Shown here piece by piece: positions 6,067 through 19,043 of a stretch of 64,000 nt of DNA. A model generated the notes under the pieces. That model was not told the DNA's origin. It did not search any database and saw nothing but the letters and a program-made list of their open reading frames with translations. Origin of the DNA: Pseudomonas sp. ZH-FAD (GTDB lineage Bacteria > Pseudomonadota > Gammaproteobacteria > Pseudomonadales > Pseudomonadaceae); the NCBI RefSeq assembly GCF_002803095.1, contig NZ_PGLR01000007.1, positions 1 through 64,000 of the forward strand, given 5' to 3'. The first letter of the stretch is position 1, and each line of letters opens with the position of its first letter. The translations under genes and the position numbers were made by a program.

Positions 6067-9000
6067 TCAGGCTTCTTCCAGCACCACCACACGCTGCCCG
6101 GCGCGCACGGGCGAGCCCGGCTGTACGCGTACTTCGCGCACGGTGCCGGCCATCGGTGCGGTGAGCGGGATTTCCATCTTCATCGACTCGAGGATCACCA
6201 GTACGTCGCCAGCCTGCACCTGCGCGCCGGCTTCCACCTGCACCTGCCAGAGGTTGCCGGCGATATGGCTTTCGATGCCGTGTTGGCCGGCTGCCAGCGG
6301 GGCGTCATCGCCGAGTTCGGCGGCCACTTCCTCGACTTCGAAATGCGCCTGGCCGCTGTCGATCCAGCGCTGGCGTTCGGCGTCGAAGGCCGCTCGCTGC
6401 TGCTGGCGGAAGGCGGCGATGCCATCGGCTTCGTCGTCGAGAAACTGCTGGTAGTCGGCCAGAGCCAGTTCGCTGTGCTCGATGCGCAGCGGGTAGCGAC
6501 CGAGCGGGAAGTCGCGGCGGATGCGCAGCAGTTCGTCCGCCGATACCGGGTAGAAGCGAATCTGGTCGAAGAAGCGCAGCAGCCAGGGCTTGCCGTCGAA
6601 GGCTTCGACCGCGCGGTAGCGGTTCCACATCTGCAGGGTGCGTCCGACGAATTGGTAGCCGCCGGGGCCTTCCATGCCATACACGCACATGTAGGCGCCG
6701 CCGATGCCGACGGAGTTTTCCGCCGTCCAGGTGCGCGCCGGGTTGTACTTGGTGGTGACCAGACGATGACGCGGGTCGAGCGGGGTGGCCACCGGTGCGC
6801 CGAGGTAGACGTCACCCAGGCCCATGACCAGGTAGCTGGCGTCGAACACCGTGCGGTAGACCTCGTCGAGGTTCGGCAGGTCGTTGATGCGGCGGATGAA
6901 CTCCAGGTTGCTCGGGCACCAGGGGGCGTCCTTGCGTACGGTGGTCATGTACTTGTCGATGGCCAGCTGGCAGGCCGGGTCGTCCCAGGACAGCGGCAGG
7001 TGGACGATACGCGACGGCACCTTGAGGTCGCGCGTGGCGCAGACGGCGTCCCACTCGCCGGCGACGATATCGAGCAGTGCCTGCAGCGCCAGGGTTTCCG
7101 GCTGGTAGTGCACTTGCAGCGAGCGGATGCCGGGGGTGAGGTCGATCACGCCGTCCAGTTGTTTGGCCTCCAGCGCCTGCATCAGCGCGTGGCCTCGGAA
7201 GCGCAGCACCAGGTCGAGTTCCGGCTGGCCGATTTCCAGCAGCAGGTGGGTGTCACCGGAAAGGCGCGCGACCAGGCGGGTGTCGGCTTCGCCGAGGTCG
7301 AGGACGATGGGGGAAGCCAACACCGAACGGCTCCCTCTCCCATTTATGGGAGAGGGTTGGGGAGAGGGGCTTTGGGCGTTTTCAAGAACCCTCTCCCCCG
7401 GCCCCTCTCCCGCAAGCGGGAGAGGGGAGACAAGCGCGAGTTCGGCGTATTCACGTGCATTGCTTTGCGCCAACTCCCGCGCGGTGGCGATATCCACCGG
7501 CACGAAGCGCACCTTGTCACCCGCCTTGAGCTGGCCGAGCTGCCACAGGTCGGCCTCGATGATAGTCACCAGGCAGACGAAGCCGCCCAGGCTGGGGCCG
7601 TCCGGGCCGAGGATCACCGGCATGTCGCCGGTAAAATCTACCGCGCCGATGGCGTAGGGGTTGTCGTGGATGTTGGACGGGTGCAGGCCGGCTTCGCCAC
7701 CGCTGTCGCGCACCCATTCCGGTTTCGGGCCGATCAGGCGTACGCCGGTGCGGCTGGAGTTGAAATGAACTTCCCAGTCAGTGGCGAGGAAGCTGTCGAC
7801 ATAACCGGGTGTGAAATATTCCGGCGCGCCGTGGGGGCCGTAGATCACTCGCAGCTCGCGCACGGCTGGCAGGGCCGGGCAGAGTTCGACAGGCAACTGC
7901 GCGCCGCTGCTGGTATCGGCGAGCGGCAGCAGGTGCAGCACGTCGCCGGCGCGCAGGGCGCGGCCGCCGTGGCCGCCGAACTGGCCGAGGGTGAAGGTGC
8001 TCTTGCTGCCTAGGTAATCCGGCACCTGAATGCCGCCGCGAATGCTCAGGTAGCTACGTGCGCCGGACCCGGCAATGGTGCCGAGGGCCAGGGTGCTGCC
8101 GGCCTGGATCAGCAGGGCGGTGTTCATCGGCTGTTCCACGTCATCGACGCTCAGCGGGATCTCGGCGCCGGTGACGGCGACCACCGCGTCGGTATTGAAG
8201 CGCAGCAGCGGACCGCTCATGGTGATTTCCAGCGCAGCGGCGCCTTCGTCGTTGCCGAGCAGGCGGTTGCCCAGGCGCAGGGCGCGGCTGTCCATCGGCC
8301 CGGACGGTGGCACGCCGACGGCCCAGTAGCCGAGGCGGCCGGGGAAGTCCTGCACGCTGGTCTGGGTGCCGGCGCTCAGCACCTCGAAGGTGCTGGCCTG
8401 GTAGACCAGATTCTCCAGGCAGCGCGTCCAGGGATGGCCGCTGGCGAAAGGCGCATCGCTGAGGATCTGGCGCAGGTAGTCGCGGTTGCATTCCACGCCG
8501 TACAGCACGGAATCGCCAAGGGCTTTGTCCAGCGCGGCGCTGGCTTGTTCGCGGGTTGGCTGCCAGGTGATCAGCTTGGCGATCATCGGGTCGAAGTAGG
8601 GCGGAATCTCGCAGCCGGCTTCGACCCAGGTGTCGACACGCAGGGCCTTGCCGTCGGCTTCAGGAAATTGCACGGCGGTGAGCAGGCCGGGGCTGGGCTG
8701 AAAATCCCGGCCCGGGTCTTCGGCGTACAGTCGCGCCTGAATGGCATGGCCGGACGGCTTGAGCGTCTTGGCCAGTTCGCTGAGCGGCGGTAGATCGTCG
8801 GCCGCCAGCTCGATCATCCAACGCACCAGATCGACACCCCACACCTGTTCGGTGACACCGTGCTCGACCTGCAGGCGGGTGTTCACTTCGAGGAAGTAGA
8901 AGCGCTCGGCCTCGCTGTCGTAGACGAATTCGACAGTGCCGGCGCTGCGGTAGCTGACCGCTTTCGCCAGCTTGATCGCCGCCGCGCACAGCTCATCCGC

Positions 9001-9750
9001 CATGCCGGCCGGCAGGTTCGGTGCCGGGGTTTCTTCCAGCACTTTCTGGTTGCGCCGCTGCACCGAGCAGTCGCGCACGCCGAGGGCTAGCACTTCACCC
9101 TGGCCGTCGCCGAACACCTGTACTTCCAGGTGGCGAGCGCGCTGGATGTATTTCTCGATAAATACGCCGCTGTCGCTGAAATTGTTCTGCCCCAGACGTT
9201 TGACTGCTTCGAAGGCCTCACTCAGTTCGGCCGCCGAACGGCACACACGCATGCCGATGCCACCACCGCCGGCGGTGCTTTTCAGCATCACCGGGTAGCC
9301 GACCTGTTCGCCTGCGACCAGCGCGGCGTCGAGGTTTTCCAGCAGCTCGGTGCCTTCGAGCATCGGCACGCCGTGCTGCTTGGCCAGGGCGCGGGCGGTG
9401 TGCTTGAGGCCGAACACGCGCAGTTGCTCCGGCGTCGGGCCGACGAAGGCGATACCGGCGGCTTCGCAGGCTTCGGCGAAGGCGGCGTTTTCGGAGAGAA
9501 AGCCGTAGCCGGGGTGGATGGCTTTAGCGCCGCTGTTTTTGGCGGCAGCGAGAATCTTCTCGACCACCAGGTAGGTCTGCGCGGCCGGGCCGTCGCCGAG
9601 GGAGAAGGCCTCGTCGGCCTGCTGGATATGCAGGCTGGCGGCGTCGGCTTCGGAGTACACGGCCACGCCGCTGACCTTCAGTTCACGCAGGGTGCGCAGG
9701 ATGCGGCAGGCGATGGCGCCACGGTTGGCGATCAATAGTTTCTCGAACAT
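6067..9750 (-). CDS. Biotin-dependent guanidine carboxylase (annotated family: urea carboxylase)
   Basis: 1227 residues. The N-terminal biotin carboxylase (about 1-450) has the ATP-grasp loop GGGGIGMR and the motif FLEVNTRLQVEHGVTE. A KipA/KipI-like carboxyltransferase follows (about 460-1140), with a C-terminal biotinyl domain whose lysine lies in ESMKME. There is no fused allophanate hydrolase. Family knowledge: urea carboxylases encoded beside carboxyguanidine deiminase genes and guanidine riboswitches prefer guanidine, making carboxyguanidine from guanidine, bicarbonate and ATP. It is the last gene of the riboswitch-led operon SBP, UAAP1, UAAP2, carboxylase. Residues of about 774-806 are encoded by an inserted palindromic repeat (see 7331-7428), which makes the protein longer than I expect for the family. 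Guanidine rather than urea as substrate is inferred from context. Confidence 0.85.
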   Translation of the reverse strand: MFEKLLIANRGAIACRILRTLRELKVSGVAVYSEADAASLHIQQADEAFSLGDGPAAQTYLVVEKILAAAKNSGAKAIHPGYGFLSENAAFAEACEAAGIAFVGPTPEQLRVFGLKHTARALAKQHGVPMLEGTELLENLDAALVAGEQVGYPVMLKSTAGGGGIGMRVCRSAAELSEAFEAVKRLGQNNFSDSGVFIEKYIQRARHLEVQVFGDGQGEVLALGVRDCSVQRRNQKVLEETPAPNLPAGMADELCAAAIKLAKAVSYRSAGTVEFVYDSEAERFYFLEVNTRLQVEHGVTEQVWGVDLVRWMIELAADDLPPLSELAKTLKPSGHAIQARLYAEDPGRDFQPSPGLLTAVQFPEADGKALRVDTWVEAGCEIPPYFDPMIAKLITWQPTREQASAALDKALGDSVLYGVECNRDYLRQILSDAPFASGHPWTRCLENLVYQASTFEVLSAGTQTSVQDFPGRLGYWAVGVPPSGPMDSRALRLGNRLLGNDEGAAALEITMSGPLLRFNTDAVVAVTGAEIPLSVDDVEQPMNTALLIQAGSTLALGTIAGSGARSYLSIRGGIQVPDYLGSKSTFTLGQFGGHGGRALRAGDVLHLLPLADTSSGAQLPVELCPALPAVRELRVIYGPHGAPEYFTPGYVDSFLATDWEVHFNSSRTGVRLIGPKPEWVRDSGGEAGLHPSNIHDNPYAIGAVDFTGDMPVILGPDGPSLGGFVCLVTIIEADLWQLGQLKAGDKVRFVPVDIATARELAQSNAREYAELALVSPLPLAGEGPGERVLENAQSPSPQPSPINGRGSRSVLASPIVLDLGEADTRLVARLSGDTHLLLEIGQPELDLVLRFRGHALMQALEAKQLDGVIDLTPGIRSLQVHYQPETLALQALLDIVAGEWDAVCATRDLKVPSRIVHLPLSWDDPACQLAIDKYMTTVRKDAPWCPSNLEFIRRINDLPNLDEVYRTVFDASYLVMGLGDVYLGAPVATPLDPRHRLVTTKYNPARTWTAENSVGIGGAYMCVYGMEGPGGYQFVGRTLQMWNRYRAVEAFDGKPWLLRFFDQIRFYPVSADELLRIRRDFPLGRYPLRIEHSELALADYQQFLDDEADGIAAFRQQQRAAFDAERQRWIDSGQAHFEVEEVAAELGDDAPLAAGQHGIESHIAGNLWQVQVEAGAQVQAGDVLVILESMKMEIPLTAPMAGTVREVRVQPGSPVRAGQRVVVLEEA
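7331..7428. repeat. CCCTCTCCC hairpin-pair repeat inserted in frame in the carboxylase gene
   Basis: Two palindromes, 7333-7356 (CCCTCTCCC with an ATTTAT loop) and 7402-7427 (CCCCTCTCCCGC with AA loop), with a spacer. The same design occurs between genes at about 52968-53055 and 59935-60110. Here it lies inside an intact reading frame and encodes low-complexity peptide such as PLPLAGEGPGERV and SPSPQPSPINGRG. Confidence 0.85.
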
Positions 9751-10049
9751 ATCCGCTCCCGAGACAGTTCAAAGCTGCTGCGCTCCACCATGCTGCGTTG
9801 GCAGCCAGTTCGAAATGCTCATTTGCTCCAGCAAACTCCGCTTTCTCACTGGCGGCCGCCTTGCCTGATGTTCGCTCGCGACGCTTTGCTCCTGCCTCGT
9901 ATAAGGTGGCGGGCCGTCCCGCCGTCATTCGTCATGTGCCACGGTCGTCCGTGGTGAAAATCCGGGTGATACGTGTTGTGCGTGCTGGGGACAAATTTTG
10001 TAGGGCGGGTGAAACCCGCCGGGCCTTGGCGGGTTTCACCCGCCCTACG
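9751..10049. repeat. Gap between UAAP2 and carboxylase with degenerate repeat and hairpin
   Basis: No gene. The part near 9815-9895 (ATGCTCATTTGCTCCAGCAAAC and following) resembles the middle of the MITE-like repeats at 26014 and 47711, so it may be a decayed relative. At 10000-10048 there is a near-perfect inverted repeat (GTAGGGCGGGTGAAACCCGCC and its complement) just past the UAAP2 stop, without a T tract. It could stabilise mRNA or adjust read-through into the carboxylase gene. Confidence 0.55.
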
Positions 10050-10685
10050 TCAGTTCCAGACCAGCACCTCGGCTGGCGTCGGGTTCCAGCCGTTGCAGGG
10101 GTTGTTCAGTTGCGGGCAGTTGGAGATCAGCACGATCACATCGGTCTCGGCCTTGAGCTCCACGTACTTGCCGGGCGCGGAGATGCCGTCCTCGAAGGTC
10201 AGGCCGCCTTCGGGGGTTACCGGTACGTTCATGAAGAAGTTGATGTTGGCGCCGATGTCGCGCTTGCTCAGGCGACCGTCGTGCAGGCTGGCGCGCAGGA
10301 AGTTGTCGCGGCAGCTGTGCATATAGCGCTTGTCCAGCGCATAGCGCACGGTGTTGCTCTCCTGCGCGCAGGCGCCGCCGAGGGTGTCGTGGCGGCCGCA
10401 GGTGTCGGCGACGATGGTCAGCAGCGGCTTGCCGAGGTTGGAATAGAGCACCGTGCCGGTGGTCAGGTAGACCTTGTTCTGCTTGCGCAGGGTGCGCTGC
10501 GGGTCGAAGCGCTCGCGTGGGTTTTTCGCGGCGAAGAACAGGGTGTCGATCGCCTGGTTGCCTTCCAGATCATGCAGGCGCAGGGTCTGCCCGGCCTTGA
10601 CCTCGAACAGGTAGGGTTCGCCCGCCGGGATGGTGTGGCGGAACACGGCGGTTTCGGGATGCAGGTTGCTGGCAGTAAGGCTCAT
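10050..10685 (-). CDS. Urea carboxylase-associated protein 2 / carboxyguanidine deiminase subunit
   Basis: 211 residues, of the same fold family as the next gene upstream. Shared features are a hydrophobic start, [29 protein letters not shown] and [11 protein letters not shown]. This family was long called urea amidolyase-associated protein; pairs of these proteins were later shown to be a carboxyguanidine deiminase (CgdAB) that converts carboxyguanidine to allophanate plus ammonia. Which subunit letter applies here was not decided. The reaction follows the carboxylase encoded downstream. Cytosolic; no signal peptide. Confidence 0.82.
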
Positions 10686-10827: not shown

Positions 10828-11556
10828 TCAAATGTACTGGCGTTCGGTGTTGTGGAAGCCGCGGCCGTTCTCTGGGCGCGAGGTGCGGCAGAGCACGGTG
10901 ATACCGTCGCTGTCGACCTTGCTCCAGGTCAGTTGCACCGGCTTGGGTGCGTACTGCGGGTTGGGGTCCATCGGGTGTTGCAGGGCGGTGAGCACCACCA
11001 GGGTGTCCATCGGCGTGTACAACTCGATGTAGTCACCGGCCTGGCTGTTGTCGGGCTGGAAGTGGAAGGCGCCATCGGCGTCGACGTCCACGCGGCTGAA
11101 CAGGTTGAGGTTCATCAGCAGGTCGAGCAGGTTCAGGTCCCACTTGCCCATTTCCACCAGCAGGTTGTCCATGCCGTTGCGGAAGAAGCCATTGCGCAGT
11201 TCCTGGTAGCGGCCCTGGCCGTACTTTTCCAGCACCTCGTCGGCATTCAGCACGCCGCCGAAGCTGTCGTGCCAGCCGCAGGTATCGGCAGTGATAGCCG
11301 CCAGCACCTTGCCCATGTCCGAGTACAGGCAGTGGCCGGCGGTGAGCTTGGCGGTGTGTTGGCATTTCAAGGTATCGGGAAGGTTCAGGCGCTCGCTTTT
11401 CTCGGCGGCGTTGAACAGCAGCAGGCTGACGTTGGCGCCGCCTTCTATATCGGTGATGCGCAGCAACTGGCCGCGCTTGAGGATGAAGGAGGTGTGGCCG
11501 CCGCCGGGGACGGTTTCCTCATAGAGAGTGGGGCGGAGAGTGAGGGCAGTGTTCAT
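10828..11556 (-). CDS. Urea carboxylase-associated protein 1 / carboxyguanidine deiminase subunit
   Basis: 242 residues, the longer partner. It carries YEETVPGGGHTSFILKRG, RITDIEGGANVSLLLFN, LKCQHTAKLTAGHCLYSDMG and DTCGWHDSFGG. The conserved Cys/His pattern parallels the downstream paralogue, consistent with an ancient duplication and a heteromeric enzyme. Second gene of the guanidine operon behind the binding protein. The 142-bp gap to the next gene contains the small palindrome CTCCCGCCTTCGCGGGAG near 10715. Confidence 0.82.
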   Translation of the reverse strand: MNTALTLRPTLYEETVPGGGHTSFILKRGQLLRITDIEGGANVSLLLFNAAEKSERLNLPDTLKCQHTAKLTAGHCLYSDMGKVLAAITADTCGWHDSFGGVLNADEVLEKYGQGRYQELRNGFFRNGMDNLLVEMGKWDLNLLDLLMNLNLFSRVDVDADGAFHFQPDNSQAGDYIELYTPMDTLVVLTALQHPMDPNPQYAPKPVQLTWSKVDSDGITVLCRTSRPENGRGFHNTERQYI

Positions 11557-11803: not shown

Positions 11804-12871
11804 TCAGAGCTTGCCGTCGACAGCCATCTGTACGTAGCTCGGGTCGAAACGCAGCTTGATGTTGGCGCTGTCGCCGGTAGTCACGTCGCCCGCGAAGGTC
11901 ATGCCGATGGCGTCAGCGCTGCGCGCGCCTTCACCAAGGATGCCGTGCTCGAAGCTGAAGTTGGCGACCTTGGTCATGGTCTCCGGCAGGGCCGGGCTGG
12001 TGACGAAGTCCAGGGTTTCCTGCGGCGTGTAGAACAGCTTGGTGGTCGCAAGTTGCGCCTGGTAGCCGGCCAGGTCGGTGCCGGAGGCCTTGGCCATTTC
12101 GGTCAGGGCTTCGGTGGCTTCGGGCGTGCCGGATTGCATCAGTTCGAGAATCTCGAACCAGGCGCCGACCAGGGCTTTGCCGAAGTCCGGGTTGTCCTTC
12201 AGGGTCTGGGTGTTGACCACCATCATGTCGAGGATTTCACCGGGGATCTTCGAGGAGTCGAACACCTGGGTGCTGCCGGGCTGGGCGATGATCTCGGCGA
12301 GCATCGGGTTCCAGGTGGCGGCGGCCTGCACGCTGGGGGTGGTATAGGCGGCGATGATGTCGGCGTCGGAGGTGTTCACCACCGTTACGTCGCGCTCGCT
12401 CATGCCTGCCGACTCCAGCGCGCGGGCGAGGAAGTAGTGGGAGACCGACAGCTCCACCAGGTTGACCTGCATGCCTTTGATGTCGGCCAGGGTCTTGCCC
12501 TCGCCCTTGATCAGCAGGCCGTCATTGCCGTTGGAGTAATCACCGACGATCAGCGCCGTGCTGTCCACACCACCGGCGGCGGGGATGGTCAGGGCATCCA
12601 TGTTGGTCATGGTGCAGCCGTCGAACTGACCGACGCTGTACTGGTTGATGGATTCGACGTAGTCGTTGAGCTGCACGACATCGATGCTGATGCCGTATTT
12701 CTTCGCCCATTTGTCGATGATGCCGGAGGTGCTGGCATAGCCCCAGGGCATCCAGCCGGCGTAGAGCGTCCAGCAGACGCTGAAGCTGTCTTTCTTCTCG
12801 GCATGAGCGCTGAAGCTGAGCACCGCGGCCAGACCGGCAGCGGCGAAGGAGAGCAGACGATACTTGCGCAT
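11804..12871 (-). CDS. Guanidine-locus ABC transporter substrate-binding protein 1
   Basis: 355 residues with a Sec signal peptide (cleavage likely after AHA, residue 24). It belongs to the NMT1/SsuA-type binding proteins, in the subfamily labelled putative urea ABC transporter binding protein because of its link with urea carboxylase. Hallmarks are WTLYAGWMPWGYA, QFDGCTMTNMDALTIPAAGG and WNPMLAEI. It leads the operon with the deiminase and carboxylase genes and follows a guanidine-I riboswitch directly. No permease or ATPase gene is in this operon; a set lies at 15627-17299. Ligand guanidine or a guanidino compound is inferred from context. Confidence 0.85.
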   Translation of the reverse strand: MRKYRLLSFAAAGLAAVLSFSAHAEKKDSFSVCWTLYAGWMPWGYASTSGIIDKWAKKYGISIDVVQLNDYVESINQYSVGQFDGCTMTNMDALTIPAAGGVDSTALIVGDYSNGNDGLLIKGEGKTLADIKGMQVNLVELSVSHYFLARALESAGMSERDVTVVNTSDADIIAAYTTPSVQAAATWNPMLAEIIAQPGSTQVFDSSKIPGEILDMMVVNTQTLKDNPDFGKALVGAWFEILELMQSGTPEATEALTEMAKASGTDLAGYQAQLATTKLFYTPQETLDFVTSPALPETMTKVANFSFEHGILGEGARSADAIGMTFAGDVTTGDSANIKLRFDPSYVQMAVDGKL

Positions 12872-12935: not shown

Positions 12936-13034
12936 CGCGTTCTCCCGGGCTTTTATCCCGCCGTGTAACCTCACTGGAGGTCGATGACTCTCGGACCAGC
13001 ACTTGCCAGGCAAGTCGGAACCCTAGTCATCCAT
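12936..13034 (-). promoter_or_regulatory. Guanidine-I (ykkC) riboswitch, copy 1
   Basis: The minus strand shows the class signatures in order: CTAGGGTTCCG, a P1b-like hairpin with TTGCC/GGCAA, CTGGTCCGAGAG, then ACGGCGGGATAAAAGCCCGGGAGA-like sequence ending about 65 bases before the ATG at 12871. It controls the operon binding protein, UAAP1, UAAP2, carboxylase. Guanidine binding is expected to switch expression on. Confidence 0.93.
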
Positions 13035-13096
13035 TTCGCAAATTGTGGTGCCGCGATTCCGGGAAACCCCGGTTAGAACCTGCACACCCAAGCTTT

Positions 13097-13252: not shown

Positions 13253-13268
13253 TGGCATGGAAATCGCT
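13253..13268 (+). promoter_or_regulatory. Sigma-54 promoter for the dioxygenase unit
   Basis: TGGCATGGAAATCGCT on the plus strand, with GG-N10-GC spacing and the same TCGCT downstream half as the three minus-strand promoters of this locus. The predicted start near 13280 lies about 25 bp before the guanidine-II hairpins. Confidence 0.6.
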
Positions 13269-13304
13269 ATCGACCCTGTTGCAGGGGCGGCCTTGCTGCC
13301 GCCC

Positions 13305-13343
13305 TCGGGACGACCCGACCCGCTGCTCGTCTGGACGACCAGG
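13305..13343 (+). promoter_or_regulatory. Guanidine-II (mini-ykkC) riboswitch
   Basis: Two short hairpins with ACGA loops (the ACGR class signature). P1 is TCGGG-ACGA-CCCGA at 13305-13318 and P2 is CTGG-ACGA-CCAG at 13331-13342. The linker is about 12 nt. The ribosome site GGGAGA follows at about 13360 and the ATG at 13371, the usual layout for translational control by guanidine. Confidence 0.88.
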
Positions 13344-13370
13344 TAACTCACTTGTTCAAGGGAGATTGCC

Positions 13371-14396
13371 ATGGCGCATACCCATTTCACCTCGATTCCC
13401 CTGATCGACGTCTCGGGCTTGTATAGCGAGCATTTTGCCGAGCGCCAGCGCGTAGCCGATGAGCTGGGCCGTGCCGCGCGCGAGGTCGGCTTCCTGCAGA
13501 TTACCGGGCACGGCATTTCGCGTGAGCTGCGCGACGGTTTGGTCGACCAAGCGCGCCGCTTCTTCGCCCGCCCGCTGGAGGAGAAGATGCGTTTTTACAT
13601 CGGTCAGTCGAGCAATCACAGCGGTTACGTGCCGGAGGGCGAGGAGCAGTTCGCCGGTGGCAGCAAGGATCTCAAGGAAGCCTACGACGTCAATTACGAC
13701 TACACCGAGGCGGCGCAGGTCTATCCGCTGCTGGGCCCGACCCAGTGGCCGGACTCGGCAGACTTCAAGCGCGAGGTCAGCGCCTACTACCTCGCGGCGC
13801 TGGAGCTGGGCGACACGCTGTTTCGTGGCTTCGCCCTGGCTCTGGGGCTGGCCGAGGACACCTTCGCCGGCATCACCCGGCAGCCCACCAGCCAGTTGCG
13901 CATGATCCATTACCCGCTCGATCCCGACCCAGTGGCCGACCGTCCCGGTATCGGCGCGCATACCGACTACGAGTGCTTCACCATTCTTCTGCCCACGGCC
14001 GAAGGTTTGCAGGTGCTCAACGGCGACGGGCAGTGGATCGACGTGCCGCTGGTGGAGGACGCCTTCGTGATCAATATCGGCGACATGCTCGAGGTACTCA
14101 GCAACGGTAACTTCGTCGCCACCTCGCACCGCGTGCGCAAGGTTAGCGAGGAGCGTTTCGCCTTTCCGCTGTTCTGCGCCTGCGACTACCCGACGCGTAT
14201 CGCGCCGATTGCCGGCCTGCCGGCGCGCGGTGAGCGCGTGTACACGCCGGTGAACTGTGGCGACCACCTGTTCGCGCAGACGGCGCAGACTTTCCGCTAT
14301 CTGCGCGAGCGGCTGGAGGATGGTTCGCTGCAACTGCCGGATGGTGCAGCGGGTTTGTCCAGCTTTGGTCAAGGCCGCCGGGAGGTGACGGCATGA
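13371..14396 (+). CDS. 2-oxoglutarate/Fe(II)-dependent dioxygenase (isopenicillin-N-synthase-like), guanidine-responsive
   Basis: 341 residues of the isopenicillin N synthase/ethylene-forming-enzyme superfamily. The N-terminal DIOX_N domain runs from IPLIDVSGL to GFLQITGHGI. The 2OG-Fe(II) domain holds the HxD...H triad: GAHTDYECFTILL near 200 and ATSHRVRK near 250. The 2OG-binding arginine is in EERFAFPLF, where the usual RxS serine is alanine. Family members oxidise or hydroxylate small molecules and some act on guanidino substrates (ethylene-forming enzyme on arginine, plant homoarginine hydroxylases). Control by a guanidine-II riboswitch and its place between guanidine transport units point to guanidine or a guanidino compound as substrate; the reaction is unknown. 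It overlaps the next gene by 4 bp (ATGA). Confidence 0.85.
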   Translation: MAHTHFTSIPLIDVSGLYSEHFAERQRVADELGRAAREVGFLQITGHGISRELRDGLVDQARRFFARPLEEKMRFYIGQSSNHSGYVPEGEEQFAGGSKDLKEAYDVNYDYTEAAQVYPLLGPTQWPDSADFKREVSAYYLAALELGDTLFRGFALALGLAEDTFAGITRQPTSQLRMIHYPLDPDPVADRPGIGAHTDYECFTILLPTAEGLQVLNGDGQWIDVPLVEDAFVINIGDMLEVLSNGNFVATSHRVRKVSEERFAFPLFCACDYPTRIAPIAGLPARGERVYTPVNCGDHLFAQTAQTFRYLRERLEDGSLQLPDGAAGLSSFGQGRREVTA

Positions 14397-15325
14397 ACCT
14401 GCTGGAACTGGCTGCACGTTACCCGCAGCGTGCCGAGGGCGGTGTGCCGGACTGGATGCTCGGGCACTTTCGTCGCCGCACCATCAGCTTCGCCGATGGC
14501 CGCAGCGATGAGCGCACCCAGGTGCACTGGCTGCAAAGCCGCAGCTTCACCATCGACCTGCGCCTGCCGGACGCACCCGCGCTGCCGGTAAGGGCCTGGC
14601 AAGACTACGACGCCGCCGAGCTGCGTCAGCTTGCTAATTATGAAGGTTGGGTGGCTGACAGTATCTGGGAGAACGGCTACTTGAGCTGGCACGGTGGCGT
14701 GTCGCTGCAACTGCACAACCGCTGGCCGGAACCGGCGCAGTTGCAGCGCATCGGCAACTGCATGATCGAGTTCGGCACCAGTGGCGCCTATGTCGAGGAC
14801 TGGCGTTTGCAGGCCAGCAGCGGGCCGTTGATCGGCCTGCGTTTGCTCGAGGAATGCGACGCTGAAAGCGGCGAAGTGCTGCAGCGCGGTGGTGGCCTGA
14901 TTCTCTGCGGCGACCGGCTTGGCTGGGTGCAGGGGCGGACGGTCGAGCCGGGTGAGTCAGCGCTGCAACTGCGCGAGCGCGCGGAGCTGGCGCATGGGAA
15001 TGGCGAGGCCCTGGCCGCGCTGTTCGACTGCGAGACCTCGCTGGCCTACGCCGATCAGCTGGGGCGTTATCAGGTGGCGTTGTCCACATCGCCGGCGCGG
15101 GTGGGGCAGAGCGTCTCGCTGGAGGGCTTTGAGTTGCCTGGAGCGGGGCGCGTCTGTCAGCACCTGCAACGCCCGGATGGGCGTGCGGTGGTACGCACTT
15201 TCATTATCGATACGCTGGAGCCGGACTGGCGGGCGGAACTCGCCACGCCGACTACCGGCGAGGCGCAGCGCTGGTTTGCCGCGGAGAGCGAAACGCTGTC
15301 GCGCTATCTCGAGGTGTTGAGCTAG
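14393..15325 (+). CDS. Unrecognised protein coupled to the dioxygenase
   Basis: 310 residues, translationally coupled to the dioxygenase by an ATGA overlap, so both are made under guanidine-II control. It has no signal peptide or transmembrane segment and many tryptophans. Motifs include RRTISFADG, VHWLQSRSFTIDLRLP, and YEGWVADSIW. The alternation of aromatic and polar residues suggests beta-rich, possibly barrel-like structure. I do not recognise the family. An accessory subunit or a second catalytic step for the dioxygenase is a reasonable guess from coupling alone. Confidence 0.75.
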   Translation: MNLLELAARYPQRAEGGVPDWMLGHFRRRTISFADGRSDERTQVHWLQSRSFTIDLRLPDAPALPVRAWQDYDAAELRQLANYEGWVADSIWENGYLSWHGGVSLQLHNRWPEPAQLQRIGNCMIEFGTSGAYVEDWRLQASSGPLIGLRLLEECDAESGEVLQRGGGLILCGDRLGWVQGRTVEPGESALQLRERAELAHGNGEALAALFDCETSLAYADQLGRYQVALSTSPARVGQSVSLEGFELPGAGRVCQHLQRPDGRAVVRTFIIDTLEPDWRAELATPTTGEAQRWFAAESETLSRYLEVLS

Positions 15326-15626: not shown

Positions 15627-16487
15627 TCAGCGGGTGGCAATACGCTCGGCCAGTTCGCTGGGCAATTGTGTCTGCGCCCGGCGCGCGGCGTTCAGTGGGA
15701 TGTCGTAGGTGATGCGCGCGCCGTAAGCGTTGGGCGCCTGCGGATCGTGGCGCACCTTGTCGAACACCAGCAGGCGGGTGCCGAGGCTGAAGCCTTCGGA
15801 CAGGTCGTGGGTGACCATGAACACGGTCAGACGGGTCTCCTGCCACAGCTCCAGCAGCAGCGCGTGCATGTCCTTGCGGATACCGGGGTCGAGTGCGCCG
15901 AACGGCTCGTCGAGCAGCAGCATGCGCGGTTGCATCACCAGTGCCTGGGCGATGGCCAGGCGTTGCTGCATACCGCCGGAAAGCGCGCTGGGGTATTTGT
16001 TCAGGGCATGGCCGAGGCCGACCTTGGTGAGGATTTCCGCAGCGCGCTCGCGGGCCTCGCGCTTGGCTGCGCCGAACAGTCGACCCAGCAGCTTCGATTT
16101 CGGCAGCTCCAGGCCCAGCGCGACGTTGTCCAGCACGCTCAGATGCGGGAATACCGAATAGCGCTGGAACACCACGCCACGGCTCGGGTCGGGCTCGTTG
16201 AGCAGCGCCTGGCCGCCCAGCAGCAGTTCGCCACGGCTCGGACGTTCCTGGCCGAGCAGCATGCGCAGAAAGGTGGATTTGCCGCAGCCGGAGGCGCCGA
16301 CCAGGGTGCAGAACTCACCCTCTTCGACCTTGAGGTTGAGGCGTTCGAGCACCACCAGGTCGCCGTATTCCTGCCACAGGTTGCGCGCTTCGATAAAGGC
16401 GGTTTTCCCTGTGCTTGCAGGGGCCGTACGGGAGTCGCTCATGGCCGGTTCACTTAGCGGGACGATGTGTTGGCTGAACAGGGTCAT
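15627..16487 (-). CDS. ABC transporter ATP-binding protein of the guanidine locus
   Basis: 286 residues of the nitrate/sulfonate/taurine class. Walker A is GASGCGKST, Q-loop VVFQRYSVF, signature LSGGMQQR, Walker B MLLLDEP and H-loop VTHD, so it should be a functional ATPase. An extra C-terminal tail of about 50 residues is present. The start overlaps the permease stop by 4 bp. A second ATG gives MSDSRTAPAST, 15 residues shorter, and is a possible alternative start. It energises import with the permease and one or both binding proteins. Confidence 0.85.
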   Translation of the reverse strand: MTLFSQHIVPLSEPAMSDSRTAPASTGKTAFIEARNLWQEYGDLVVLERLNLKVEEGEFCTLVGASGCGKSTFLRMLLGQERPSRGELLLGGQALLNEPDPSRGVVFQRYSVFPHLSVLDNVALGLELPKSKLLGRLFGAAKREARERAAEILTKVGLGHALNKYPSALSGGMQQRLAIAQALVMQPRMLLLDEPFGALDPGIRKDMHALLLELWQETRLTVFMVTHDLSEGFSLGTRLLVFDKVRHDPQAPNAYGARITYDIPLNAARRAQTQLPSELAERIATR

Positions 16488-17299
16488 GCCTTGCCTCCTT
16501 CATGCCAGGGGAAGCACAGGCGCAGCACCTGGCGCAGGCCCAGATCCATCAGCCAGGCCAGCAGGGTGATCCATACGACGTAGGGCAGGATCACGTCCAT
16601 GGCCATGTAGCGACGCACCAGGAAGATGCGGTAACCGAGGCCGTCGGTCGAGGCGATGGCCTCGGCGGCGATCAGAAACAGCCAGGCCGAACCGAGCATC
16701 AGGCGCAGCGAGATCAGCAGGCGCGGCATCAGTTGCGGCAGTACCAGGCGCAGGATCAGCGTCCAGGAGTTGGCGCCGAGGGTCTGCGCCTTGATCAGCA
16801 GCTCGCCGGGAATCTCACGGGCACGCTGTTCGATGTCACGAGCGATGCAGGGGGTGATGCCGATGACGATCAGCATCACCTTGGACAGCTCGCCCAGGCC
16901 GAAGACGATGAACAGAATCGGCAGGATAGCTAGCGGCGGAATCATCGACAGCACCGTGAGCAGCGGCGACAGCGGCGCGCCGAACAAAGGCACGCTGCCG
17001 GCAGCGATGCCCAGCACCAGGCCCAGCAGCGCGGCGATGCCAAGGCCCAGGCCCAGGCGCTGCAGACTGGAGGCGGTGTCCTGCCAGAACAGGTACTGGC
17101 CGCTACGTTTGTCTTCGGTGAAGGCCAGGCGGTCGATGGCATCGACCATCTGGCTGGCGCTGGGCAGCAGCTTATCGTTGGGGTTCTCGGCCAGGCGGCT
17201 GGTCGAGGCGCTGAAATAGACGAACAGCAGCAGGGCGAAGGGCAGCAGGATCAGCAGCAGGCGGCTGCTGCGATCCGGGTGGCGGTTGATCAGGCGCAT
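16484..17299 (-). CDS. ABC transporter permease of the guanidine locus
   Basis: 271 residues with about six hydrophobic segments (first at 13-30) and the inner-membrane component (EAA-like) loop around LLIKAQTLGANSW. It belongs to the SsuC/TauC/NrtB permease family. It is first in its transcription unit, preceded by guanidine-I riboswitch copy 2 about 180 bp upstream, and overlaps the ATPase gene. It is the only permease gene in the locus although there are two binding proteins. Confidence 0.85.
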   Translation of the reverse strand: MRLINRHPDRSSRLLLILLPFALLLFVYFSASTSRLAENPNDKLLPSASQMVDAIDRLAFTEDKRSGQYLFWQDTASSLQRLGLGLGIAALLGLVLGIAAGSVPLFGAPLSPLLTVLSMIPPLAILPILFIVFGLGELSKVMLIVIGITPCIARDIEQRAREIPGELLIKAQTLGANSWTLILRLVLPQLMPRLLISLRLMLGSAWLFLIAAEAIASTDGLGYRIFLVRRYMAMDVILPYVVWITLLAWLMDLGLRQVLRLCFPWHEGGKA

Positions 17300-17480: not shown

Positions 17481-17583
17481 CGCGTTCTCCCGGGCTTTTG
17501 TCCCGCCGTGTAACCTCGCTGGAGGTCGCTAGCTCTCGGACCAGTCGCTCGCCTGTGGCGAGCCGGAACCCTAGCCGGCTATT
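17481..17583 (-). promoter_or_regulatory. Guanidine-I (ykkC) riboswitch, copy 2
   Basis: The minus strand carries GGCTAGGGTTCCGGCTCGCC, ACTGGTCCGAGAG, the GACCTCCAGCGAGGTT hairpin, and ACGGCGGGACAAAAGCCCGGG. It lies upstream of the permease-ATPase pair, leaving about 180 nt between aptamer and start codon, room for an expression platform. Confidence 0.93.
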
Positions 17584-17641
17584 GGCAAATTGTGGTGCCG
17601 CGATCCCGGCGAGCCGGGTTGTTTCTGCACGCAGGGTCCGT

Positions 17642-17756: not shown

Positions 17757-18818
17757 TTACAGCGCCCCATCGGCGGCCAGTTCCATATAGCGATGGTTGA
17801 AGCGCAGCAGAATGCGCTGCGGGTTGCCCAGCGTTTTCTCGCCACTGAATTCGATACCCAGATTGGTCAGACCCATGCCGCTCTTGCCCAGCAGGCCGTG
17901 AGCATCGGCAAAGTGCGCGACCCGTTGCATGAGGTCCGGCAGCTTGCCGGTGCGTGCGAAGTTCAGCGCGCTGCGCGGCGAATAGAACGAACGCAGGGTG
18001 CCCAACTGGGCGTCGAAGTCTTCCGCGGTGGTGTCGGCGGCGGCTGCCATTCTGGCCCGGGCTTCACGACCGGCCGGGGTGGGCAGGCCGAGCAGGCGCT
18101 GGGTCTCGAACCAGGCGCCGGTCAGCGCGCGACCGAATTCCGGGTGCTGGGTAAGGGTCTGGCTGCTGACCACGGTGAGGTCGAGGATTTCACCGGGAAT
18201 CAGATTGGAACTGAACACCTGGCTGACCTCGGTCTTGCGCCGAATCTCGGAGAGGATCGGGTTCCAGGTGATCACCGCGTCGCCCTTGCCGGCGAGGAAG
18301 GCATCAGCGATTTCGGTATCGGAGACGTTGATGATGGTCACGTCGCTTTCATCGAGCAGGGCCCACTCCAGTGCGCGGCTGAGCAGGTAGTGCGAGACCG
18401 AGTTCTCCACCAGCAGCACGCTCTTGCCTTTCAGGTCCTGGATTCTCTTGCCGCTGCCACGCAGCAGCAGGGCGTCGGCGCCATTGGAGAAGTCGCCGAT
18501 GATCAGGGCGGTGCTGTCCTTGCCGGCAGCAGCGGGAATGGTCAGGGCGTCCATGTTGGTCATGCTGCAGGCGTCGAACTGGCCGGCGCTGTAGCGCTCG
18601 ATGGAGGCGACATAATCCGGCACTTCCTGCACCTGAATGTCAATGCCGTACTTGTCCGCCCACTTCTTCACGATGCCCTGTTCGGCGGCGTAGCCCCAGG
18701 GCATCCAGCCGGCGAATATCGACCAGCACAGCTTGAAGGTTTTAGGCGCGGCCTGGGCTGTCGGAGCGCCAAGCAGGTAGGCGCAGAGCAGGACGGTGAG
18801 CAGGGAGCGAATGGACAT
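17757..18818 (-). CDS. Guanidine-locus ABC transporter substrate-binding protein 2
   Basis: 353 residues with a signal peptide ending near AQA (residue 23). It is a clear paralogue of the protein encoded at 11804-12871: SIFAGWMPWGYAAEQG, QFDACSMTNMDALTIPAAAG, WNPILSEI and IPGEILDL are shared blocks. It has its own guanidine-I riboswitch and sigma-54 promoter. The two paralogues differ in many other positions, so they may bind different ligands or affinities while sharing the single permease. Ligand inferred from context only. Confidence 0.85.
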   Translation of the reverse strand: MSIRSLLTVLLCAYLLGAPTAQAAPKTFKLCWSIFAGWMPWGYAAEQGIVKKWADKYGIDIQVQEVPDYVASIERYSAGQFDACSMTNMDALTIPAAAGKDSTALIIGDFSNGADALLLRGSGKRIQDLKGKSVLLVENSVSHYLLSRALEWALLDESDVTIINVSDTEIADAFLAGKGDAVITWNPILSEIRRKTEVSQVFSSNLIPGEILDLTVVSSQTLTQHPEFGRALTGAWFETQRLLGLPTPAGREARARMAAAADTTAEDFDAQLGTLRSFYSPRSALNFARTGKLPDLMQRVAHFADAHGLLGKSGMGLTNLGIEFSGEKTLGNPQRILLRFNHRYMELAADGAL

Positions 18819-18867: not shown

Positions 18868-18985
18868 GCGTTCTCCCGGGCTTTTGTCCCGCCGTGTAAC
18901 CCCGCGGCATCCCGCCGCTGCATGAGGTCGCCCACTCTCGGACCAGCCACTCGCCGTTTGACGAGCCGGAACCCTAGTCGGCCAT
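18868..18985 (-). promoter_or_regulatory. Guanidine-I (ykkC) riboswitch, copy 3
   Basis: The minus strand shows GACTAGGGTTCCGGCTCGTC, CTGGTCCGAGAGTGGGCGACC, an enlarged variable hairpin (GCAGCGGCGGGATGCCGC), and ACACGGCGGGACAAAAGCCCGGG. It lies 50 bp upstream of binding protein 2. Confidence 0.93.
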
Positions 18986-19043
18986 TACGATTCGCTACCA
19001 CTGACGATCCTGTGCATGGATCGGCTTTCCGCGACGCTGGGCA

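Follow-up and report, generated by a model that had tools for sequence, protein, structure and literature searches.

The 64,000-nucleotide stretch of Pseudomonas sp. ZH-FAD analysed here (contig NZ_PGLR01000007.1, positions 1 to 64,000; referred to as the window) contains two overlapping genes, mgdH and mgdL, which very probably constitute a methylguanidine demethylase unit under the control of its own guanidine-II riboswitch. What is shown for this genome comprises the sequences, their homology and synteny, and patterns of conservation and covariation, from which the substrate, the ligand and the switching are inferred. Both enzymes and the class of riboswitch were known before; what is new is the arrangement, in which mgdHL is placed under a guanidine-II element of its own. 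A sequence-only reading of the window had proposed a candidate new system of guanidino-compound oxidation, consisting of a dioxygenase and an unknown partner. This novelty had to be given up, since both enzymes had already been described in October 2025 as the methylguanidine hydroxylase MgdH and the N-(hydroxymethyl)guanidine lyase MgdL of the salt-loving bacterium Vreelandella boliviensis (PMC12508155). The other half of the proposal, an oxidation that releases guanidine for the carboxylase route, is retained: based on the homology of both proteins and the neighbouring genes, the pair most likely demethylates methylguanidine and thereby feeds guanidine to this route. Literature searches, evaluated by titles and the beginnings of abstracts, returned no description of a guanidine-II element before mgdH; subscription papers, including the 2017 guanidine-II validation paper, were outside their scope.

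In the proposed mechanism, guanidine or methylguanidine would be taken up by the neighbouring ATP-binding cassette (ABC) transporter, whose genes lie behind guanidine-I riboswitches. Guanidine, and probably methylguanidine too, would bind the ACGA loops of the two hairpins of the mgdH leader, P1 and P2, and join them in a kissing complex. This complex would stabilise P2 and weaken a hairpin covering the Shine-Dalgarno (SD) sequence, allowing mgdH and mgdL to be translated. MgdH would then use O2 and 2-oxoglutarate (2OG) to hydroxylate methylguanidine at its methyl group, and guanidine would be passed via Gca and CgdAB of the same cluster and an allophanate hydrolase encoded elsewhere in the genome to ammonia.

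The predicted MgdH and MgdL enzyme pair

The dioxygenase comprises the Pfam domains DIOX_N and 2OG-FeII_Oxy and is 55-56 % identical to V. boliviensis MgdH over 334 residues. The intact HxD...H triad described in the sequence-only reading was confirmed, as H197, D199 and H253 each recur in 97 % or more of the rows of a 137-row alignment that includes repeats of some genomes. The same applies to R262, which we take from the family to be the 2OG-binding arginine. The RFA found in place of RxS had been regarded as a sign of altered 2OG or substrate binding. Altered 2OG binding was rejected because the motif varies across the family (RYS in 60 of the 137 rows, RFA in 31, RYA in 28, RFS in 5 and no motif match in 13) and the characterised enzyme has RYS.

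The 310-residue partner, coupled to mgdH by an ATGA overlap, was likewise confirmed from the sequence. Its relationship to V. boliviensis MgdL was detected by profile alignment (hhalign of A1 versus A2: 98.3 %, E 1.3e-14, 204 columns, approximately 21 % identity), which places D55-L-R57 of the window protein on the catalytic D49-I-R51. D55 and R57 are invariant in all 20 rows of the A1 alignment, and a D-x-R motif is present in 59 of the 59 proteins of loci L066-L124, the window copy L111 included, with 58 matching D[LIVM]R[LI] and the acidobacterial L106 having DFR. An AlphaFold2 (AF2) model of MgdL shows a calycin-like beta-barrel (pLDDT 79.1, pTM 0.82), and its best VIA structural match is 3rby (Z 12.2, root-mean-square deviation 3.5, 185 aligned). 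The model of V. boliviensis MgdL is also a beta-barrel (PMC12508155). A Foldseek search with the window model gave no match at E 0.001, NCBIfam and Pfam assigned no family beyond one chance-level Pfam match, and a sequence search of the PDB returned nothing useful.

Comparative genomics, suggested in the sequence-only reading as a check of the pair, found the two genes together almost throughout. In the best 30 of 34 strong matches from 298 genomes of the family, mgdH adjoins mgdL in every locus, the window included, and it does so in 78 of 80 named loci. The two exceptions are L040, with a truncated mgdH, and L080, which begins inside mgdL. At least one of gca, cgdA or a substrate-binding protein (SBP) gene is nearby in 59 of these 80 loci. 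The pair was found in many Pseudomonas species as well as in Marinobacter, Marinimicrobium, Haliea, Variovorax, Thalassolituus, Acinetobacter and others, and the nearest named locus found is that of Pseudomonas chengduensis DSM 26382 (MgdL 96 %, MgdH 98.5 %). As separate observations, 27 of the 298 genomes (genus g15 and G123) contain only a weak MgdL homologue with 27-33 % identity over about 225 residues, and L040, on a contig labelled as a Halothiobacillus metagenome-assembled genome, carries a Pseudomonas-like mgdHL whose mgdH lacks its middle (residues ~104-302); this contig is perhaps misbinned. On an Acinetobacter plasmid, a small multidrug resistance (SMR) transporter gene follows mgdHL (L128:6891-7220); the SMR family is known for guanidine export.

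For comparison with the published system, locus L152 served as the reference; it contains the gene-specific portions of each of the four mgdH and mgdL primers published for V. boliviensis (PMC12508155). Loci with order-wide matches and two chance primer matches were discarded as not being the V. boliviensis locus. The gene order of L152 is SBP, ABC, cgd, gca, mgdH, mgdL and atzF, and Rfam places guanidine-I and guanidine-II elements where the publication puts them (PMC12508155), with no element reported at mgdH. Both systems share mgdH directly before mgdL, the D-x-R catalytic pair in MgdL, the gca, cgd and SBP/ABC neighbours, and guanidine-I and guanidine-II riboswitches within the cluster. 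They differ in that V. boliviensis mgdHL lies within the gca operon between gca and atzF, whereas in the window it is divergent with its own guanidine-II element and atzF is located elsewhere. MgdL also differs in length, with 310 residues in the window compared to 250 in V. boliviensis. Further carriers named by the authors are Salinisphaera and other Vreelandella, and their supplementary alignment contains 216 homologues (PMC12508155).

The guanidine-II element ahead of mgdH

The two ACGA-loop hairpins claimed directly upstream of the dioxygenase were confirmed by reading the sequence (Table 1) and are separated by a linker of 12 nt. That a guanidine-II-type element precedes the pair is supported by a covariance model built from relatives, by the recurrence of the hairpins compared to shuffled sequences and by compensatory changes. 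The covariance-model search proposed in the sequence-only reading gave a divided result: the Rfam model stayed below its gathering score, and a model from the leaders of relatives ranked the element first in the window and in the genome. This model, R1, was built from 24 leaders out of 36 distinct pieces, all from outside the clade of the window, after leaving out near-copies and two short Acinetobacter pieces. Its best match in the window is at positions 13303-13344 (31.4 bits, E 2.5e-6), and over the 6.18-Mb genome the mgdH leader again ranks first (E 2.3e-4), with a runner-up of 19.6 bits. A further R1 match inside gca (6949-6990) was judged to be due to chance, with an E-value of 0.0033 in the window and 0.32 in the genome.

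Two hairpins with ACGR loops precede mgdH in all 30 same-family loci, including that of the window. In a wider set, a strict search for hairpins with an ACGR loop and at least four Watson-Crick pairs within 220 nt upstream of mgdH found two in 99 of 123 loci, one in 5 and none in 19, while none of 6150 dinucleotide shuffles had two such hairpins. Copies of the window and some genomes that occur more than once are part of this set; per distinct upstream piece, two hairpins are present in 68 of 92. Since the 123 loci were gathered by similarity to the window's MgdL, the set favours MgdL relatives. Compensatory changes are evident in P1, which is UCGGG/CCCGA in the window, GCGGG/CCCGC in L015 and L016 and CCAAG/CUUGG in L068. 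The fifth pair of P2 covaries as well, being paired in 42 of 43 distinct leaders (UG 17, UA 14, AU 4, CG 3, GC 3, GU 1).

The element resembles the Guanidine-II class (mini-ykkC, RF01068) in that two hairpins with ACGR loops precede a start codon and in its connection to guanidine genes, and its linker lies within the published range of 7-40 nt (PMC7544219). It differs in scoring under the Rfam threshold and in a P1 of just 5 bp. Guanidine-II RNA binds methylguanidine (PMC12508155, PMC5486947), and the guanidine-II element upstream of gca in V. boliviensis binds guanidine and methylguanidine about equally (PMC12508155).

In relatives, the P1-P2 linker reaches up to 68 nt and often carries an extra hairpin, as observed in L018, L021, L026, L030, L066, L068, L083, L085, L115, L117 and others. 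The sequences of these hairpins are very different and their form is similar, mostly with about 6-8 unpaired bases after them. A stem of at least four Watson-Crick pairs near P1 is present in 28 of 44 distinct non-window linkers, of which only 9 beat their own shuffles at 0.05, so that the signal is statistically weak for single loci. In the window clade, the hairpin was found in none of 7 linkers. The linker hairpin of the relatives is therefore suggestive only.

Regarding the expression platform, single folds predict that the leaders can form an SD-covering hairpin 3' of P2, starting with the last base or bases of P2. Since this hairpin and P2 are in competition for bases that they share, a ligand locking P1 and P2 together should help to expose the ribosome site, which would make the element an ON switch. 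For the outer six pairs of the SD stem, 82.4 % of the cells are paired in 43 distinct leaders, and 26 double-change cells were counted compared to 9.4 in shuffles, with 0 of 500 shuffles as high. As the shuffle control keeps the relatedness of the sequences as a confounder, slid registers were used to remove it, and the signal is far above all six of them. In a subset of 28 leaders, from which 15 were omitted as near-copies or due to odd lengths or doubtful starts, 86.8 % of the cells are paired with 18 double-change cells versus 6.8. The RNAalifold consensus contains P2 only and does not include the SD stem. In a model of the window leader, freeing the SD costs 7.0 kcal/mol, and 5.2-5.6 kcal/mol once P1 and P2 are imposed; this energy modelling agrees with switching in direction only and does not reproduce full thermodynamic switching. 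An alternative hairpin in the window leader, pairing the P2 loop with the linker, was dropped as it is not kept in L013. In the Escherichia coli guanidine-II model, the P1-P2 linker pairs with the SD (PMC9300104), whereas the anti-SD predicted in the window is located on the 3' side of P2 and includes the last bases of P2. The expression platform probably differs from the published E. coli model.

Counter-evidence and alternative explanations

Several observations weigh against the favoured reading, a methylguanidine demethylase unit with a guanidine-II riboswitch of its own. On the enzyme side, a direct tblastn search with the window MgdL missed V. boliviensis MgdL at E 0.01, and its identity is under the 30 % limit applied by the authors of PMC12508155 for the collection of homologues. 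MgdH-like sister dioxygenases linked to a gene for a xylose isomerase-like TIM-barrel protein are 52-59 % identical to V. boliviensis MgdH (seven loci) and thus as similar to it as the window enzyme, so that identity alone is not decisive. In the tree, the V. boliviensis, window and TIM-barrel-linked clades leave one fork without branching order. Since the tree does not settle this order, orthology rests on the shared MgdL partner, and since the sister group is equally similar, the substrate argument leans on this partner and the neighbourhood, not on percent identity. Concerning the element, the gathering score of the Rfam Guanidine-II model is not reached at the mgdH leader, where separate pieces score 16.7 and 13.2 bits versus 32, and an Rfam search at E 5 gave no acceptable guanidine-II match in this leader either. 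Scans of 20 loci, one of which is the window copy, yielded no Rfam element ahead of mgdH, and neither did scans of further loci, with the exception of L106, where the element passes the threshold (32.3 versus 32). Furthermore, 24 of the 123 loci, mainly from sphingomonads and myxobacteria, lack two hairpins. Among six additional MgdL-linked loci, L170, L171, L175 and L179 have no hairpins and L169 and L178 have two; the hairpin-free ones include one of the V. boliviensis type. For the switching, 18 % of the SD-stem cells in the 43 leaders do not pair, the SD-covering hairpin is missing from the single folds of L100, L105, L088 and L119, and the modelled SD is mostly paired even with P1 and P2 imposed.

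Among the alternatives, the one that survives best, although it is unlikely, is that the pair, controlled by the same riboswitch, acts by demethylation or cleavage on a different guanidino compound, for example N,N-dimethylguanidine or some other small alkylguanidine. V. boliviensis MgdH, for which the hydroxylation of methylguanidine was shown, also hydroxylates N,N-dimethylguanidine (PMC12508155), and both the remoteness of the MgdL subfamily (21 %) and the existence of a further remote pair suggest that substrates may have diverged. On the other hand, the catalytic D and R of MgdL are conserved, the transporter, gca and cgd partners are the same as in V. boliviensis, and the published MgdL has a narrow specificity for N-(hydroxymethyl)guanidine (PMC12508155).

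It is very improbable that, like the ethylene-forming enzyme (EFE) and the plant 2-ODD-C23 homoarginine-6-hydroxylases, the dioxygenase hydroxylates arginine or homoarginine to yield guanidine and a semialdehyde. EFE and the 2-ODD-C23 enzymes are also 2OG/Fe(II) oxygenases that release guanidine by hydroxylation, but they act on arginine or homoarginine and their product decays unaided (PMC12508155). The Pfam families are the same, and the best match among solved structures is 9ovh (E 1.5e-49), a chain named 2-oxoglutarate-dependent ethylene/succinate-forming enzyme. However, other chains of this name match far more weakly (E 2.5e-22 to 6e-16), the window enzyme was not found to be closer to EFE chains than to MgdH, and MgdH is the better-matching characterised enzyme. 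Moreover, the MgdL partner is explained by an unusually stable hydroxymethylguanidine. We know of no MgdL partner for EFE or 2-ODD-C23.

That the hairpins are a chance or unrelated repeat and no riboswitch is hardly credible: the low Rfam score and a free-energy fold of the window leader that is not better than its shuffles (z -0.40) would fit this, but they are opposed by the hairpin counts in loci and shuffles, the first rank of an independent covariance model in the genome, the compensatory changes in both P1 and P2 as well as in the SD stem, and the element of L106, which occupies the same position and reaches the Rfam threshold.

The sister dioxygenases deserve a separate description. Within 4-kb stretches, neither MgdL nor ACGR hairpins were found at the seven TIM-barrel-linked loci, and one such paralogue is present in the same genome as the window (L180, G000:C40:12506-13516). 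Other loci of this kind are L125, L126, L127, L173, L174, L176, L177, L181 and L183, and in several of them an apparent polar-amino-acid-type binding protein follows, as judged by eye. On a plasmid of Paraburkholderia sprentiae, the TIM-barrel-linked gene is located beside UAAP, uca and atzF genes, a neighbourhood suggesting that the TIM-barrel partner may take the place of MgdL or be used for a different guanidino compound. Both a replacement lyase and a different guanidino substrate are thus possible. MgdL in a remote form is also found beside the most remote dioxygenases of the tree. The remote MgdH/MgdL-like pair of L124 and L138-L142, which occurs with an ABC ATPase, is about 35-38 % and 27-32 % identical to the window proteins and belongs to V. 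boliviensis' family of genomes; in three cases, the genome with this pair (G368, G683, G770) also carries the V. boliviensis type.

Implications and neighbouring guanidine genes

If the favoured reading holds, methylguanidine demethylation would extend beyond the halophiles of PMC12508155 to Pseudomonas and the other carrier genera, and a set of guanidine-II elements would exist that the standard Rfam model does not report. The mgdH leader would offer a clean test of whether a directly placed guanidine-II element responds to methylguanidine. The remote MgdL retains the Asp-Arg pair in an otherwise changed protein and could help to define the active site of the lyase, and proteins currently called 'hypothetical' could be named. 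A more far-reaching proposal, which we consider doubtful, is that the mgdH leaders are a separate guanidine-II subtype overlooked by Rfam, characterised by the competition between P2 and the SD hairpin and a frequent linker hairpin, which would chiefly sense methylguanidine, the substrate of the enzyme under its control, in the cell while guanidine-I elements on the opposite strand sense guanidine. Such a subtype would, to our knowledge, be the first natural RNA sensor dedicated to methylguanidine.

The mgdHL unit is divergent from the SBP/cgd/gca operon on the opposite strand (Table 1). The SD of mgdH (AAGGGAG) is located at 13358-13364, and the allophanate hydrolase gene is found at G000:C79 (822.8 bits).

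Table 1. Coordinates of the mgdHL unit and of the surrounding guanidine-related features in the window
Feature	Position	Strand	Basis
Guanidine-II hairpin P1, UCGGG-ACGA-CCCGA	13305..13318	+	Sequence read directly; inside model R1 match
Guanidine-II hairpin P2, CUGG-ACGA-CCAG	13331..13342	+	Sequence, model R1; wobble pairs can lengthen it to 13329-13344
Predicted SD-sequestering hairpin	13342..13370	+	Folds, covariation; 5' arm starts with last base(s) of P2
mgdH, predicted 2OG/Fe(II) methylguanidine hydroxylase, 341 aa (start ATG at 13371)	13371..14396	+	V. boliviensis MgdH identity; Pfam PF14226, PF03171
mgdL, predicted N-(hydroxymethyl)guanidine lyase, distant subfamily, 310 aa	14393..15325	+	hhalign, AF2 model
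Guanidine-I riboswitch of divergent operon	12940..13037	-	Rfam RF00442, 89.7 bits
ABC transporter SBP (ABC_peri_uca)	11804..12871	-	TIGR03427, 564 bits; 57 % identical to that of the V. boliviensis operon
Carboxyguanidine hydrolase/deiminase subunit gene (UAAP1; cgdA/B pair)	10828..11556	-	TIGR03425
Carboxyguanidine hydrolase/deiminase subunit gene (UAAP2; cgdA/B pair)	10050..10685	-	TIGR03424
Guanidine-II riboswitch upstream of gca	9909..9956	-	Rfam RF01068, 44.8 bits
gca, guanidine carboxylase (NCBIfam: urea carboxylase)	6067..9750	-	TIGR02712, 1863 bits
ABC transporter ATP-binding protein, second cluster	15627..16487	-	67 % identical to that of the V. boliviensis operon
ABC transporter permease	16484..17299	-	60 % identical to that of the V. 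boliviensis operon
Guanidine-I riboswitch upstream of permease gene	17485..17585	-	Rfam RF00442, 93.4 bits
Second ABC SBP (ABC_peri_uca)	17757..18818	-	TIGR03427, 435 bits
Guanidine-I riboswitch upstream of second SBP	18871..18988	-	Rfam RF00442, 85 bits

Three guanidine-I riboswitches of the window lie within about 6 kb, together with two SBPs of one family. Given these two SBPs, the uptake proteins for guanidine and methylguanidine may be separate. Guanidine-I riboswitches and the carboxylase cluster are also mentioned in a genome paper of 2026 on Ectopseudomonas guguanensis, in which a figure legend bears the label 'unknown' (PMC13296017).

Within the coding sequence of gca, an in-frame stretch at roughly 7250-7400 on the reverse strand reads SPLPLAGEGPGERV...SPQPSPINGRG. 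Its pattern resembles that of a translated palindromic repeat, which may have been inserted in the coding sequence.

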